64,000 nt of DNA from NCBI GenBank assembly GCA_025998875.1, contig AP024675.1, forward strand, positions 434,001-498,000, in the 5' to 3' direction. The notes below the pieces were generated by a model. It was not told where the DNA came from. It did no database searches and saw only the letters and a list, made by a program, of their open reading frames with translations. Every line of letters begins with the position of its first letter. Position 1 is the stretch's first letter. Source of the DNA: Bacteroidota bacterium. GTDB taxonomy: Bacteria; Bacteroidota; Rhodothermia; JANXDC01. Position numbers and translations under genes: made by a program. Of the stretch, positions 11,088 to 16,770 are shown one piece after another.

Positions 11088-12032
11088 TCACTCAAACTGT
11101 ACGGGGACCCGCAAACGACGGCCGAATAGACGGGGCTCGGAGACGGAAATCTGCTCCAGTATGGTCCGCAACTCGCGCAAAAAGGCGTTTCGCAGATCCG
11201 CCTCCCCGGCCCGCAGGTCCACCTCCTGAAAACGCAGCACGCGCACCTCCCCCTCTTCGGAGATGAGCACATGCACCGCTACACGACCCCGCAGCAAGGG
11301 ATCCTGAGCCCGGTATCGGCTGTAGAGGCGATCCAGCTCGGTTCGATAGGCCTGTAAAATGGGCAGAAACAGCGTTTCCACGGGCACCACGGCCTCCGGA
11401 AGCGCATTCCCCTCTCTTACCCCCCGCCCATCCCCGACCCCACCGGCCGTGCCCGCCCCCCGCCCGCCGCCCCAGCCCCAGAGGCGGCGCAACAACCGGT
11501 TGGCGGTGAGCGCGTCGGCCGAGGAAGCCCGTGATCCGACCACCATCCCGGAACCCACCTCCGGCGGCAGAATCGCCTGCGATGTCGATGTGCGCGCAGG
11601 CGCCGTTATGGGGCGGGTCAGCAGGCCCGGATCTACATCCGGACGGGGAGGTTCGTACAGGCTTCGCGTTCGGCCCAGCCGATCCACAGGATTGGAGCTT
11701 CCGCCGGGTCTATCGTCGTGACCATGCACCTGAATCGATGCGGTTCTGGAGGCGACGTATCGGGGCAGCACGAGCTCAGCCCGCAGGAGTGCACGCTCCG
11801 AGAAGCCCGACAGGGGAAACGGACCGGACCAGGACATCGGGCGAGACTGCCCCCGTTCGAGCCGCTGCACACCCACCCCTATGGCCAGCCCCGAAAGGAA
11901 AAACAGACTCAGGATAAGCAGCAGGCGCGCCAGATGTGCCGGAGAGGGAAGAGGCCGTAATACGCTCCGCAGATCGACCGGTGGGCGATCTTCCGGTTCC
12001 AGGTAGACCTCTATGCGGTATCCGTGGCTCAT
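11088..12032 (-). CDS. TonB/AgmX-like periplasmic energy-coupling protein
   Basis: 314 residues: a short cytoplasmic N-terminus, one transmembrane segment at about residues 34-53 (LARLLLILSLFFLSGLAIGV), and a long low-complexity periplasmic linker with a Gly-rich stretch. A C-terminal domain has the RGRVAVHVLISEEGEVRVL pattern typical of TonB or AgmX/PglI C-terminal domains. It is last in an ExbB-ExbD-ExbD operon and its ATG overlaps the preceding stop as ATGA, so a force-transmitting role is likely. The partner on the outer-membrane side is unknown. It differs enough from classical TonB that I give no symbol. Confidence 0.75.
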   Translation of the reverse strand: MSHGYRIEVYLEPEDRPPVDLRSVLRPLPSPAHLARLLLILSLFFLSGLAIGVGVQRLERGQSRPMSWSGPFPLSGFSERALLRAELVLPRYVASRTASIQVHGHDDRPGGSSNPVDRLGRTRSLYEPPRPDVDPGLLTRPITAPARTSTSQAILPPEVGSGMVVGSRASSADALTANRLLRRLWGWGGGRGAGTAGGVGDGRGVREGNALPEAVVPVETLFLPILQAYRTELDRLYSRYRAQDPLLRGRVAVHVLISEEGEVRVLRFQEVDLRAGEADLRNAFLRELRTILEQISVSEPRLFGRRLRVPVQFE

Positions 12033-12508
12033 GTCTTCCTGCCCATCGGACGGACAAGCAGGGAAACCCGCTCAAAACCAGCCTGACTTATGGTATAGAG
12101 CACGGGAGCTATGAGCCCATAGCGCATCCCCGCGGGGGCCAGAAGGACACAGGAGAGCTCCACTGCCCCCCCCTGAGTTGATCCCCACCGGACCTCTTGC
12201 AGGGCGGCATGCAGGGCGGGCAGGAACCACTCATTCGGCCCCAGCTCTTCGATAGCGGAGAGCGCCAGCACGGGCTTTCCTCCTACGTAGAGGAAGCTGC
12301 TGTCGATGGCAATCACCACACCCGAGCCGGCCAGCACGGGGGCGTTCGCCTCGGGCAAAAGGTCCGTGTAGGGCACCCCGAGCCGATCCTCGGCCCACAC
12401 CAGGGTGCTCAGCATAAAAAGCAGCAGAATAAAGAGCACATCCAGTAGAGGCGTCAACACACCCGCCTCCGCGTGCCGATTGAGTCGATGGATGGCCAAA
12501 CGCCTCAT
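12029..12508 (-). CDS. exbD: ExbD/TolR family protein with intact membrane Asp
   Basis: 159 residues: one N-terminal transmembrane helix with the family motif LTPLLDVLFILL, in which Asp23 is the proton-carrying residue of ExbD/TolR/MotB-type stators. A periplasmic ExbD-like domain follows (LYVGGKPVLALSAIEEL, MRYGLIAPVLYTISQAGF). It starts in an ATGA overlap with the preceding ExbD-like gene. ExbD proteins form a dimer inside an ExbB pentamer, so the two tandem copies may form a heterodimer. Confidence 0.88.
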   Translation of the reverse strand: MRRLAIHRLNRHAEAGVLTPLLDVLFILLLFMLSTLVWAEDRLGVPYTDLLPEANAPVLAGSGVVIAIDSSFLYVGGKPVLALSAIEELGPNEWFLPALHAALQEVRWGSTQGGAVELSCVLLAPAGMRYGLIAPVLYTISQAGFERVSLLVRPMGRKT

Positions 12509-12993
12509 TGTAGCGCAAGCGCTAGGGTAATCCGCTGACCCCATGGCTCCGGCATGGCCTGCAAGGCCTGCAGCGCCTCCACAAGGAGCTGATAGGATAC
12601 CTGGGGATCAGCGGCAAGCTGGATCACCCCCGCAGGCCGGGACGGGCGGGCAAGGTAACGCAGTAACGCCTGCTGCACCTGCGGCCAGGGCACGAAATCC
12701 GCATCCCGGCTCGGGAAACGCTCTACCAATCGGTTTCCCTCCAGGGGGTCGAAGAGGTATACCCCCTCCGGATCCAGCCATACGCGCAGAGCCGGGGCAT
12801 CGGGTGGGCTCAGCGGGGGGTCGGCCGTAGCGGACTCCTCGGCCTGGGGCCACCAGAGCACAATCGCCCGCAGATCCTCCAGGCGTGCCGTACTGGCCAG
12901 CAGCACAAGCAGCACGAGCAAGAGGTTCAGCACGGCCATCAGACCGAGTGCGACGGGAGCGTGGAGGCGTCTCTGGCTGAATCGGCGCCGCAT
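12505..12993 (-). CDS. ExbD/TolR-like protein with Asn in place of the membrane Asp
   Basis: 162 residues: a basic N-terminus, a transmembrane helix at about residues 13-34 (LGLMAVLNLLLVLLVLLAST) and a periplasmic ExbD-like domain ending VIQLAADPQVSYQLLVEALQ. Aligned without gaps to the next gene, Asn23 sits exactly at the Asp23 position, so the usual proton carrier is absent. ATG 12993 lies 4 nt after the exbB stop; a GTG at 13011 would overlap exbB. This copy probably partners the Asp-bearing ExbD rather than working alone. Confidence 0.82.
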   Translation of the reverse strand: MRRRFSQRRLHAPVALGLMAVLNLLLVLLVLLASTARLEDLRAIVLWWPQAEESATADPPLSPPDAPALRVWLDPEGVYLFDPLEGNRLVERFPSRDADFVPWPQVQQALLRYLARPSRPAGVIQLAADPQVSYQLLVEALQALQAMPEPWGQRITLALALQ

Positions 12994-12997
12994 GGGC

Positions 12998-13684
12998 TCA
13001 TCCCAGTACACGCTCGATGAGTCTTCCGCCGAAGGCCTCCAGCTCGTCGTAGCGCTGCTCCAGATAGTGCTGCAGAAAGCTGTAGGCCAGCAGGCTCGGA
13101 ATGGCCACCATGAGCCCGCCCATGGTGGTCACCATCGCTGTGGCGATGCTGCGCGAGAGTATGGCCACGCGCTCGGCCGGTGGCAGCACAACCGAACCCA
13201 GGTTGTGGAAGGCCAGAATCAACCCATAGATGGTACCGGCCAGCCCGATGAGCGTGGCCACATGGGCGATCATGTTCAGATGGCGCACCCCGCGTTCCAG
13301 GCTCGGCGCGGCCTCGAGCAACGCCGTTTCCACGGCGGCGCGCAGACGAGCCTCCTCACCCCCGCTCAGATAGACCCGTACCACCGCTTCCCCCAGACGC
13401 CCGATCAGCCGTGGCCGCAGTCTCCCAAAGAGCTCCAGCAGGCGATCCCAGCTGCGCTCCCTGAGCATAGGCTCCAGCATGCGTTCCAGCGCTCTGTAGT
13501 CGACGCGCAGGCTACGCCAGAACACCCAGAAGCGCTCCACGCTTACCACAAGCGCCCACAAAAAGAGCAACAAAAGCACCCACATGAACACCCATCCGTC
13601 GGCGGGCGGGAGCACCTGTCCGCTGTGATCGGTCTGGCTCCAGAAACGGAACTGATCCCAGAAAACCCCCCAGAAGGAACGCAT
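12998..13684 (-). CDS. exbB: MotA/TolQ/ExbB family proton-channel protein
   Basis: 228 residues with three predicted transmembrane helices: about residues 31-52, then TLIGLAGTIYGLILAF near 145, then TTMGGLMVAIPSLLAYSFL near 190. The Thr residues and the VAIP turn in helices 2-3 are the conserved proton-path features of ExbB/TolQ. It would form the pentameric stator around the ExbD dimer and use proton motive force. It starts 6 nt after the small secreted gene. Confidence 0.92.
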   Translation of the reverse strand: MRSFWGVFWDQFRFWSQTDHSGQVLPPADGWVFMWVLLLLFLWALVVSVERFWVFWRSLRVDYRALERMLEPMLRERSWDRLLELFGRLRPRLIGRLGEAVVRVYLSGGEEARLRAAVETALLEAAPSLERGVRHLNMIAHVATLIGLAGTIYGLILAFHNLGSVVLPPAERVAILSRSIATAMVTTMGGLMVAIPSLLAYSFLQHYLEQRYDELEAFGGRLIERVLG

Positions 13685-13690
13685 ACCCCT

Positions 13691-13957
13691 TTATCGCCCC
13701 CGAAGCCCGGTATCCGGATTACGCACACGACGCGGACGCTCAAGCATCATCTCCGGCCTGTGGAACATCGCCCCCCGAGGCCCCAGCAGGGGTCCGGAGG
13801 GAACCCGATACATCACGGCAAGCGCAGGAGGCGCCTCCGCACGGGCGCGCACGACCACGGGATCGGTCCAGAGGGGCAATCTGGATTCCGATCCGCTTTG
13901 CGCGTTCAGCACCAAAGGCGCAAGCCCAATGCACAGAAGCGCAACGAGATATCGCAT
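13691..13957 (-). CDS. Small exported protein in the ExbB/ExbD operon
   Basis: 88 residues. A signal peptide (MRYLVALLCIGLAPLVLNAQ) precedes a short Pro/Arg-rich mature part with no recognised domain. The ATG shares one base with the stop of the TPR gene (TGATG), and exbB begins 6 nt downstream, so it is almost certainly co-expressed with the motor genes. A periplasmic accessory or assembly role is inference from position. Confidence 0.7.
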   Translation of the reverse strand: MRYLVALLCIGLAPLVLNAQSGSESRLPLWTDPVVVRARAEAPPALAVMYRVPSGPLLGPRGAMFHRPEMMLERPRRVRNPDTGLRGR

Positions 13958-16770
13958 CACTGCATCCCCACCAGTCGACTGATCGCCTGTTGGAGCTCCG
14001 AATCCACGTATCCGGATGGCCCTAAGATTGCACGGGCCCGCTGAATCCAGCGAGCTCGATCCGCCGGCCGGCTGGCCTGATCGGCCAGCCCCACCCACAA
14101 CCAGGCCACCGCATTTCGAGCCCAGGAATCGTATTCGGGTTCCCGGCGCAGAAGCCGGATAGCCCCCTGTTCCAGTTTTTCCACCTGCGCTGGATCGTAA
14201 CGCTGACCCCGGTGGCGATAGGTGTAGTGCGCCCATCGCAACTCGGCCCGCAACACCAGGGGCTCTACGTCCTCCAGCTCCAGAGCGGCAAGCCCGGAGG
14301 CCAGATTGCGAATCTGCGCGTAGAGCGCCTCGATGGCTTTCTCCGGCGCCTGAGAGGCTCCTTCGGTGGCCTCCCAGAACTGATCGAGCCGATATCGCAA
14401 CAGCTCCCGGGCGGCGCGGACCTCATGAGGCAGGGGAATCGGCGCTCTGGAGATGCCGTTGCGGACGATCCACTCCAACTGGACAACAGCGCGATCCCGC
14501 AGACCCCGCCGGGCCAGGCCTTGTGCCAGCTCCCAGAGGGCCCATCCCGTACGCGGATCGTTCGGATAGGCCTGCGCAAAGCGCTCCAGCACCGCCTCGG
14601 CCGAATCCAACTCCCCCACCTGCATCCAGGCCAATCCCTTCAGCAACCAGGCGCTGCTTTGCCAGAGATTGCCCCCTTCCACCTCCGGCAATGGCACAAG
14701 ACAAGCCAGTGCGGAGTCCGCTCGGCCCATCCGGTAAAACCAGCGCGCCGCCTCGTATCCGGCCCGGGGCAACCCGAGACGGGCGGCCTGAGCCCACCGG
14801 GAGGCGGCCAGATCCGCACGCTCCGTTTCCGCAAATACGATGGCCTCCTCGACCGGAGCGCGCAGGGAATCGGGAATCACATCCAGGGGAATGGCCGGCG
14901 AAGGAAAGGGATCTTCCAGAAGGCGCACAGCCCCCAGCCAGGAGCGCCATGCCGAGGCCCCCGCTCCCAGCAGGGAGATCGCTTCCTCCAGGGCCGGGAG
15001 CAACTCGCCCCATCGGGAGATGCTGTCGGCCTCAAAAGCCAGGGTGGCCGTATAGTAGATCGCCCGCTCGATCCAGCGGGCCGCTTCGGCCGGATTGTTG
15101 TGACGCAGCAGATCGGCGAGCACGGTCGCATAGCCCACATGCAGGGAAAGCGCCTCCCGGGCCCAGGCGCGCACCCGGGGATCGCCGGATGCCGGATGGG
15201 TTCCAGGGGGGCCGTAGGCCCGCCAGAAGGCCTCCGTCAGCAGGGCAAGCCGGGTGGTGGTCTCCATCCATTGGGGGGCCTGACGTTCCGGATGCAGCCG
15301 GTGTCGCCGTTCCTGCAGCCGACGGATCCACCCCCAGGCCAGAGCCGGCGCCCGGGGATGATCGGGCTGCAGCCGGAGCGCTGCCTGATAGAAGGCCGAG
15401 CCATCTGGAAGCCGCTCGGCGATCTGGATCAGCAACTCCACCGGCTCCAGCCCCGCCTCAGGAGCCCAGCGCAGGACCGCCTCCGGATTGGCGTCGGGCA
15501 TCTGGGCCCAAAGCGCTACCACCTCACCGAGCGCCGCTTTGCGCACCTCCTGAGGTAGGCTATCCCGCAGAGCCTCCGCCCAGACCGCAAGCGCGGCCCG
15601 AAGTCCATGCTCCATCTTGGCCTGACGGGCGCGCTCCGCGTAACGATAGAAGCGATAGCCCGGGGCCTGGCGCAGGGATACATCGCCCAGCAGAAGCGCC
15701 CGTGCGGCTTCGAGTTCAAGGGCGCTCATCCCCTGCAGCGGACCCGGGTGCTCAATGGCCTTCAGCCACGCCTCCCGCTGCATCGGCGACAGGGGGACCT
15801 GCTCCACTACAGCCAGCAGGGCAGGAGCCAGATCGCGCAGGATCTCGGCCCGGTCCAAGGGATCGGAGGGCAACTCGGCCAGCGCGTTGTCGATCAGAAT
15901 ACGGGCCCGCGCGGTAAGGCCCATCCGAAGGGCCAGCATCACGGCCTCGGATCCGGAAAGCTGGCGCAGCAGAGGCGTCCAGCGCGCCATCGCGCGAGCG
16001 GAATCCCCCCTTTCGGCCTCCAGAATCCCAAGGCGCCAGAGGGCCCGGGCCCTGAGGGGACTGCCGAGCAGAGCCTCATAGGCCCGTCGCGCCGAGGCCG
16101 TATCTCCTTCCTCCTCCAGCATCCAGGCCCGCAGGAAATCCCCTTCCGGACCCGGGGGCAGCACAGCGCGCGCTTCCTGAAAACGGCCCCGCTCCATGGC
16201 CCATCGGGCCAGGAGCAGACGCGCCCGATAGGTCAGCGAATCCGTGGCGGGCATGTAGGCCAGGAGCTCCAGACGCCGGGACCAGGAGACGGAATCCGGC
16301 AGGATCCGCAGCAGCCGAAAACCCGCGGCGGCCGCATACGGGGAATCCGGATCCCTGAGCAGGCGCTCGTACAGGGCACCGGCCTTGTCCAGCTGTCCGA
16401 ACCGGAGCCAGGATTCGGCCGCAAAATAAAGCACATCATCTCGCGGCTCCAGATACGGGGCATAGGCCTCTTCTAGCTCCTCAAACCACCGGGCTGCCTC
16501 CGCCCAGCGGCCGGCCTCGTAGAGCCCGACCCCCGTGCGCAGATCTTGCTGCCACAAACGGAGACGCGCCTGTGGGTCTACTTTCGATAACACAGCCCGC
16601 CGTATGGAGCGCAGATCGAGGAGACCGGCACGGGGCACGGCCACTTTAGCCCGGCGGGCCTCCTGCATCCACCCCTGAGAGGCCCGACCCACCCAGGCCG
16701 TATCGGCTGGCTGAGCCGCCGAAAGCAGAGGAAAAAGCCACAGCAGGATGAGAAGCATCTTAATGCGCAT
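13957..16770 (-). CDS. Exported tetratricopeptide-repeat protein of the ExbB/ExbD operon
   Basis: 937 residues: an N-terminal signal peptide (MRIKMLLILLWLFPLLSAAQ) then almost entirely helical TPR-like repeats. Examples are GLYEAGRWAEAARWFEELEEA near residue 80, SWLRFGQLDKAGALYERLL, and further groups up to QVGELDSAEAVLERFAQAYP. It overlaps the polA stop by 11 nt, and the next small gene begins in its stop. Exported TPR proteins accompany ExbB/ExbD/TonB-type motors in several phyla and probably act as scaffolds. No catalytic motif is visible. An ATG at 16758 is an alternative start without overlap. Confidence 0.82.
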   Translation of the reverse strand: MRIKMLLILLWLFPLLSAAQPADTAWVGRASQGWMQEARRAKVAVPRAGLLDLRSIRRAVLSKVDPQARLRLWQQDLRTGVGLYEAGRWAEAARWFEELEEAYAPYLEPRDDVLYFAAESWLRFGQLDKAGALYERLLRDPDSPYAAAAGFRLLRILPDSVSWSRRLELLAYMPATDSLTYRARLLLARWAMERGRFQEARAVLPPGPEGDFLRAWMLEEEGDTASARRAYEALLGSPLRARALWRLGILEAERGDSARAMARWTPLLRQLSGSEAVMLALRMGLTARARILIDNALAELPSDPLDRAEILRDLAPALLAVVEQVPLSPMQREAWLKAIEHPGPLQGMSALELEAARALLLGDVSLRQAPGYRFYRYAERARQAKMEHGLRAALAVWAEALRDSLPQEVRKAALGEVVALWAQMPDANPEAVLRWAPEAGLEPVELLIQIAERLPDGSAFYQAALRLQPDHPRAPALAWGWIRRLQERRHRLHPERQAPQWMETTTRLALLTEAFWRAYGPPGTHPASGDPRVRAWAREALSLHVGYATVLADLLRHNNPAEAARWIERAIYYTATLAFEADSISRWGELLPALEEAISLLGAGASAWRSWLGAVRLLEDPFPSPAIPLDVIPDSLRAPVEEAIVFAETERADLAASRWAQAARLGLPRAGYEAARWFYRMGRADSALACLVPLPEVEGGNLWQSSAWLLKGLAWMQVGELDSAEAVLERFAQAYPNDPRTGWALWELAQGLARRGLRDRAVVQLEWIVRNGISRAPIPLPHEVRAARELLRYRLDQFWEATEGASQAPEKAIEALYAQIRNLASGLAALELEDVEPLVLRAELRWAHYTYRHRGQRYDPAQVEKLEQGAIRLLRREPEYDSWARNAVAWLWVGLADQASRPADRARWIQRARAILGPSGYVDSELQQAISRLVGMQ

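Follow-up and report, generated by a model that had tools for sequence, protein, structure and literature searches.

Conserved pairs of ExbD proteins in which one copy lacks the proton-carrying Asp and the other carries it are nearly certain to exist. One such pair lies in the window, that is, in the whole stretch of 64,000 nucleotides of a Bacteroidota genome analyzed here (contig AP024675.1). The pairing is new; the kind of motor to which it belongs (ExbBD/TolQR/AglRQS) is already known. Searches of the open literature, which covered only a minority of subscription papers and no bioRxiv preprints, yielded no description of an ExbD partner lacking the Asp.

The gene cluster and its Asp-less ExbD

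The genes of the cluster all lie on the minus strand. The first one encodes a large protein matching TPR families (13957..16770), and it is followed by the genes for a small secreted protein of 88 aa, with a signal peptide predicted by eye (13691..13957), and for an ExbB/TolQ/AglR-like pentamer subunit (12998..13684; PF01618, 82.4 bits). Then come two genes of the ExbD/TolR family. The upstream one, here called ExbD-N, has Asn at residue 23 (12505..12993; codon AAC, 12925-12927), and the downstream one, ExbD-D, has Asp at the same residue (12029..12508; codon GAT, 12440-12442). Both match PF02472 above its cut-off of 25.4 bits, with 30.9 and 39.8 bits, respectively. The last gene encodes a TonB/GltG-like force transducer (11088..12032), in which a long disordered linker joins a TM helix to a TonB-fold C-terminal domain; beyond it are ORFs reading as rimP, nusA and infB. 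An AglR-like gene and two TolR-like genes are clustered here, as in the Agl-Glt core complex. ExbD-N starts at the ATG at 12993, and an in-frame GTG is also present at 13011. The junctions ExbD-N/ExbD-D and ExbD-D/TonB-like both show an ATGA overlap, and the overlap of the two exbD genes favors equal synthesis of both ExbD proteins.

The original prediction had aligned the N-terminal helices of the two proteins without gaps, with Asn23 in the first copy and Asp23 in the second. This alignment is correct, since both residues align to Asp25 of E. coli K-12 ExbD. When a profile of the Asp-less family is aligned, the column of residue 23 is also that of the Asp in the solved TolR and ExbD chains. 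A misread start or frame was considered and rejected, because both frames are intact and the helix aligns gap-free to E. coli. ExbD-N is therefore a member of the ExbD/TolR family by descent, without the active residue: it has the PF02472 match, the TM helix and the TolR-type periplasmic domain, but not the proton-carrying Asp, which is present in the TM helix of ExbD-D. The genome contains five ExbD genes in total, and ExbD-N is the sole one without Asp; the copies of the second tandem pair have SLADIA and SLPDIV here, and the unpaired ExbD has SMTDIV.

The AlphaFold2 model of ExbD-N (mean pLDDT 70.6) consists of a TM helix and a periplasmic domain. In VIA-align, its best match is TolR (5by4; Z 8.9, 93 residues), followed by ExbD (8p9r; Z 8.1), with a small margin over unrelated folds at Z 8 and below, so that the family claim is carried by the sequence evidence. 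Foldseek alone gave weak matches only for this protein. The ExbB of the window, aligned to E. coli ExbB, has the equivalents of Thr148 and Thr181, as expected of a subunit of a 5:2 motor, and Thr at the position of Glu176.

Conservation of the pair in two phyla

The operon with Asn and Asp was found in six Bacteroidota genomes: two of the same genus as the window and four of another class, where the search covered these four genomes only (4/4). In the other species of the genus, the gene order is the same and both Asn and Asp are kept (identity 57% and 54%). The four more distant operons came to light when ExbB was compared with 394 Bacteroidota genomes, which contained four more full-length relatives, 29% identical and all from one family. 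Besides ExbB and a transducer, each of them encodes one ExbD with VIMN or VVMN and another with SLMD; a TPR-type protein lies upstream wherever the contig extends, and a small secreted protein was seen in two. A large TPR protein of a similar kind occupies the same position in L018 (the genus relative) and in L099-L102; sequence homology of the TPR protein of the window to its counterparts in the distant class was looked for, and none was detected. Counterparts of the small secreted protein are at about 3741-4007 in L018, 7017-7343 in L099 and 6517-6834 in L100. This protein, encoded between the TPR gene and exbB, has a conserved R-A-R-like motif in two classes.

The original prediction had proposed comparing orthologs at residue 23. 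The expected pattern, Asn in one paralog and Asp in the other, was obtained in all six Bacteroidota genomes with the operon (6/6). Asn23 is among just 18 invariant columns in the alignment of the six ExbD-N proteins, and Asp23 is invariant among their six ExbD-D partners. As Asn is invariant in six genomes from two classes, chance is excluded.

ExbD-N is under purifying selection and is not a dying gene. Between the two species of the genus, dN is 0.33 for ExbD-N, 0.40 for ExbD-D and 0.49 for the transducer, with dS near saturation. Decaying genes often lose a key residue first, and the ExbD-N of the window has diverged, so one could see in it a decaying duplicate whose Asn is a product of drift. 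We give this idea next to no credence: ExbD-N orthologs share just 57% and about 23% identity, yet Asn is invariant over them, dN is well below dS, the frame is intact, and an Ala counterpart is found in 20 loci. The retention of ExbD-N across species refutes it.

Outside the genus, ExbB matches among the 244 genomes of the window's class reached at most 110 bits, against 364-371 bits within the genus. The best of these matches, where read, are ordinary Ton/Tol-type loci and were set aside, as were generic ExbB matches in other Bacteroidota, which are also ordinary Ton/Tol-type loci with Asp present. The ordinary ExbB-ExbD-ExbD tandems of Bacteroidota resemble the window in having two adjoining ExbD genes after one ExbB. 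However, they belong to a different ExbB group, and in the window's class they have Asp in both copies in all 18 pairs completely read, the second pair of this genome included.

Asp-less copies are also present in Bdellovibrionota. A Bdellovibrionales MAG (L106) encodes ExbB, an ExbD reading LAPLLAVMV, an Asp-bearing ExbD, a TPR protein and a GltG-like protein; the same MAG has two additional ExbD pairs, each with Asp in both copies. Among 144 sampled Bdellovibrionota genomes, 20 loci have Ala and one has Ser in the upstream copy, and all 21 have Asp in the downstream copy; several related D/D families occur beside this A/S family. Altogether 57 operons were sampled, and since many of the loci are closely related, the following counts are not independent. 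The upstream residue is D in 30, A in 20, N in 6 and S in 1, and the Asp-less copy is upstream in every case. The downstream residue is Asp in 57/57, and ExbB likewise has Thr at the positions of Thr148 and Thr181 in 57/57, indicating that the chemistry of the pore has been preserved. In hhalign, the N and A families match each other with E 3e-13. A Pro seven positions further along (LVP/LIP) is common to the Ala copies and the Asn copies of the other class but missing from the window copy.

Glu is found at the Glu176 column of ExbB in 8 of the 30 D/D operons and in none of the 27 Asp-less operons. Its absence was considered as a correlated change, but Glu is also missing from most D/D operons, so no conclusion follows. 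In L151, the Asp of the first ExbD is replaced by Ser (LAPLLSVLV), the third kind of neutral residue at this position after Asn and Ala. In L141-L159, the Ala of the first ExbD is followed four residues later, within the predicted TM helix, by a Lys (LLAVMVKLVP) that might form a pair with the Asp of the partner.

In the tree built from ExbB and ExbD-D, with the upstream ExbD left out, the six N operons group together (support 96/87), next to a Bdellovibrionota clade with A/S operons plus some D/D operons. The deep placement of the window's genus is uncertain because of its long branch. Three changes between Asp and Asp-less states are needed on this tree, be they losses or regains. The first ExbD of L187, from Bdellovibrionota, keeps Asp, yet its helix motif (DIIVAIVP) is as in Asp-less copies. 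Its nesting with two Ala loci in the tree suggests that it is an intermediate or that the Asp was regained.

The transducer and related systems

The window transducer has a confidently modeled TonB-type C-terminal domain, as in the Ton system, and the first hit of this domain in the fold search is the C-terminal domain of H. pylori TonB (prob 0.99, E 3.3e-3). Its match to the AgmX/PglI tail family (NF033768) is weak (20.8 bits, under the cut-off), and hhalign against GltG-like proteins gives E 1.2e-4 but a probability of 55. The transducers of the other class match GltG with 111 bits (a partial match; the equivalog cut-off is 650) and the AgmX/PglI tail with 83 bits, above the cut-off. The Bdellovibrionales members likewise clearly match both.

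The module probably works like, and is related to, the Agl-Glt core complex, of which the window copy would be a putative member. The original prediction had noted that tandem ExbD copies beside one ExbB recall the AglR/AglQ/AglS motor of Myxococcus. This likeness holds in part and is extended by the GltG-like transducer. The core complex of Myxococcus and Bdellovibrio (AglRQS/GltG; PMC3169522) also combines a TolQ-like gene, two TolR-like genes, the TonB-like GltG and TPR proteins. The likeness does not extend to the Asn, as AglQ and AglS are both reported with Asp (PMC9389320), and the window transducer differs in its weak match to the AgmX/PglI tail family. In L099-L102, an AglR/Q/S plus GltG-like cluster is found inside Bacteroidota. 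In an earlier survey, the gliding machinery was reported as not conserved in this phylum (PMC3169522).

E. coli ExbBD-TonB and TolQR-TolA share with the window the family, the pore threonines, the periplasmic domain and the transducer fold, but they have one ExbD/TolR gene and a homodimer with two Asp. For the paired TPH-vWA force transducers, heterologous pairs are predicted inside a TolQ-like pentamer (PMC12204202); unlike the present pair, these are vWA proteins, with Asp reported in each monomer.

A possible one-site motor

ExbD-N and ExbD-D likely share one pore. We consider it reasonably probable that the product of the operon is a 5:2 motor driven by protons, with ExbD-D and ExbD-N as the two halves of a heterodimeric axle and the sole proton site on ExbD-D. 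An ExbB pentamer, as in motors of the ExbBD/TolQR/AglRQS type, would hold one copy of each protein. Protons would be bound and released by the Asp of ExbD-D alone. Level with it, ExbD-N would present a side chain that is always neutral (Asn here, Ala or Ser in the Bdellovibrionota copies) and mimics the protonated state. Such a motor may use about five protons per turn and move in unequal half-steps, compared with ten equal 36-degree steps. The TonB/GltG-like protein would relay force to a putative target in the outer membrane, probably aided by the TPR protein and the small secreted protein. In favor of this reading are the N/D pattern of the six Bacteroidota operons, the A/D and S/D pairs of Bdellovibrionota, the invariant downstream Asp and pore threonines, the fixed upstream place of the Asp-less copy, the common grouping of the N operons in the tree, and the domain structure, low dN and gene overlap of ExbD-N.

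In most solved ExbBD/TolQR structures, the two Asp point in different directions, and an exchange of protonation between them at every 36-degree step has been proposed (PMC12905483; PMC12215075). In MotB, D22N has been described as a mimic of protonation (PMC9389320). In light of this alternation and mimicry, a permanently neutral partner agrees with a heterodimer whose cycling is confined to ExbD-D. On the other hand, L187, with its Asp kept within an otherwise Asp-less clade, counts against the one-site heterodimer. Moreover, published rotary models use both Asp sites, and five ions per turn would need an entirely new model (PMC9389320). In M. xanthus, AglQ D28N abolished proton conductance despite the presence of AglS (PMC3858216). 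One Asp is thus not always sufficient, and motors of the present type would need other adaptations.

Alternatively, the axle could consist of two ExbD-D proteins, and ExbD-N, though produced together with them, would act outside the motor pore, as an accessory protein or a binder of peptidoglycan. In agreement with such a role, the solved structures of ExbBD and TolQR generally contain homodimers, and the helix of the window ExbD-N has diverged. Nevertheless, we regard it as unlikely, given that ExbD-N has a gap-free ExbD-type helix together with a TolR-like domain, that its gene is flanked by exbB and exbD-D and overlaps the latter, and that it is present in every operon found. The halt of conductance by the Asp-to-Asn change in AglQ (PMC3858216) would also agree with ExbD-N forming inactive ExbB pentamers as a brake or reservoir, the copy ratio tuning the output of the motor. 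The overlapping genes predict a fixed ratio, however, and the arrangement is conserved in two phyla, which makes this explanation quite improbable. Still harder to believe is that ExbD-N joins proton transfer via another residue of its own: the Lys four residues on in the helix of many Bdellovibrionota Ala copies might serve in this way, but the helix of the ExbD-N proteins from the window and the other class has no charged residue.

A review left open if AglQ and AglS assemble as heterodimers or as homodimers (PMC9389320), and the conserved pairing of Asp with Asn or Ala is comparative evidence for an obligate heterodimer. Tentatively, and with somewhat less than an even chance of being right, these operons may represent a natural and widely conserved class of 5:2 rotary motors, in which a heterodimeric axle bears just one proton site and a turn takes five protons against ten. 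Current models expect two proton-carrying residues, and a natural one-site motor, if true, could test them. The Asp/Asp-less pair would offer a ready-made single-site motor with which the stepping mechanism may be tested.
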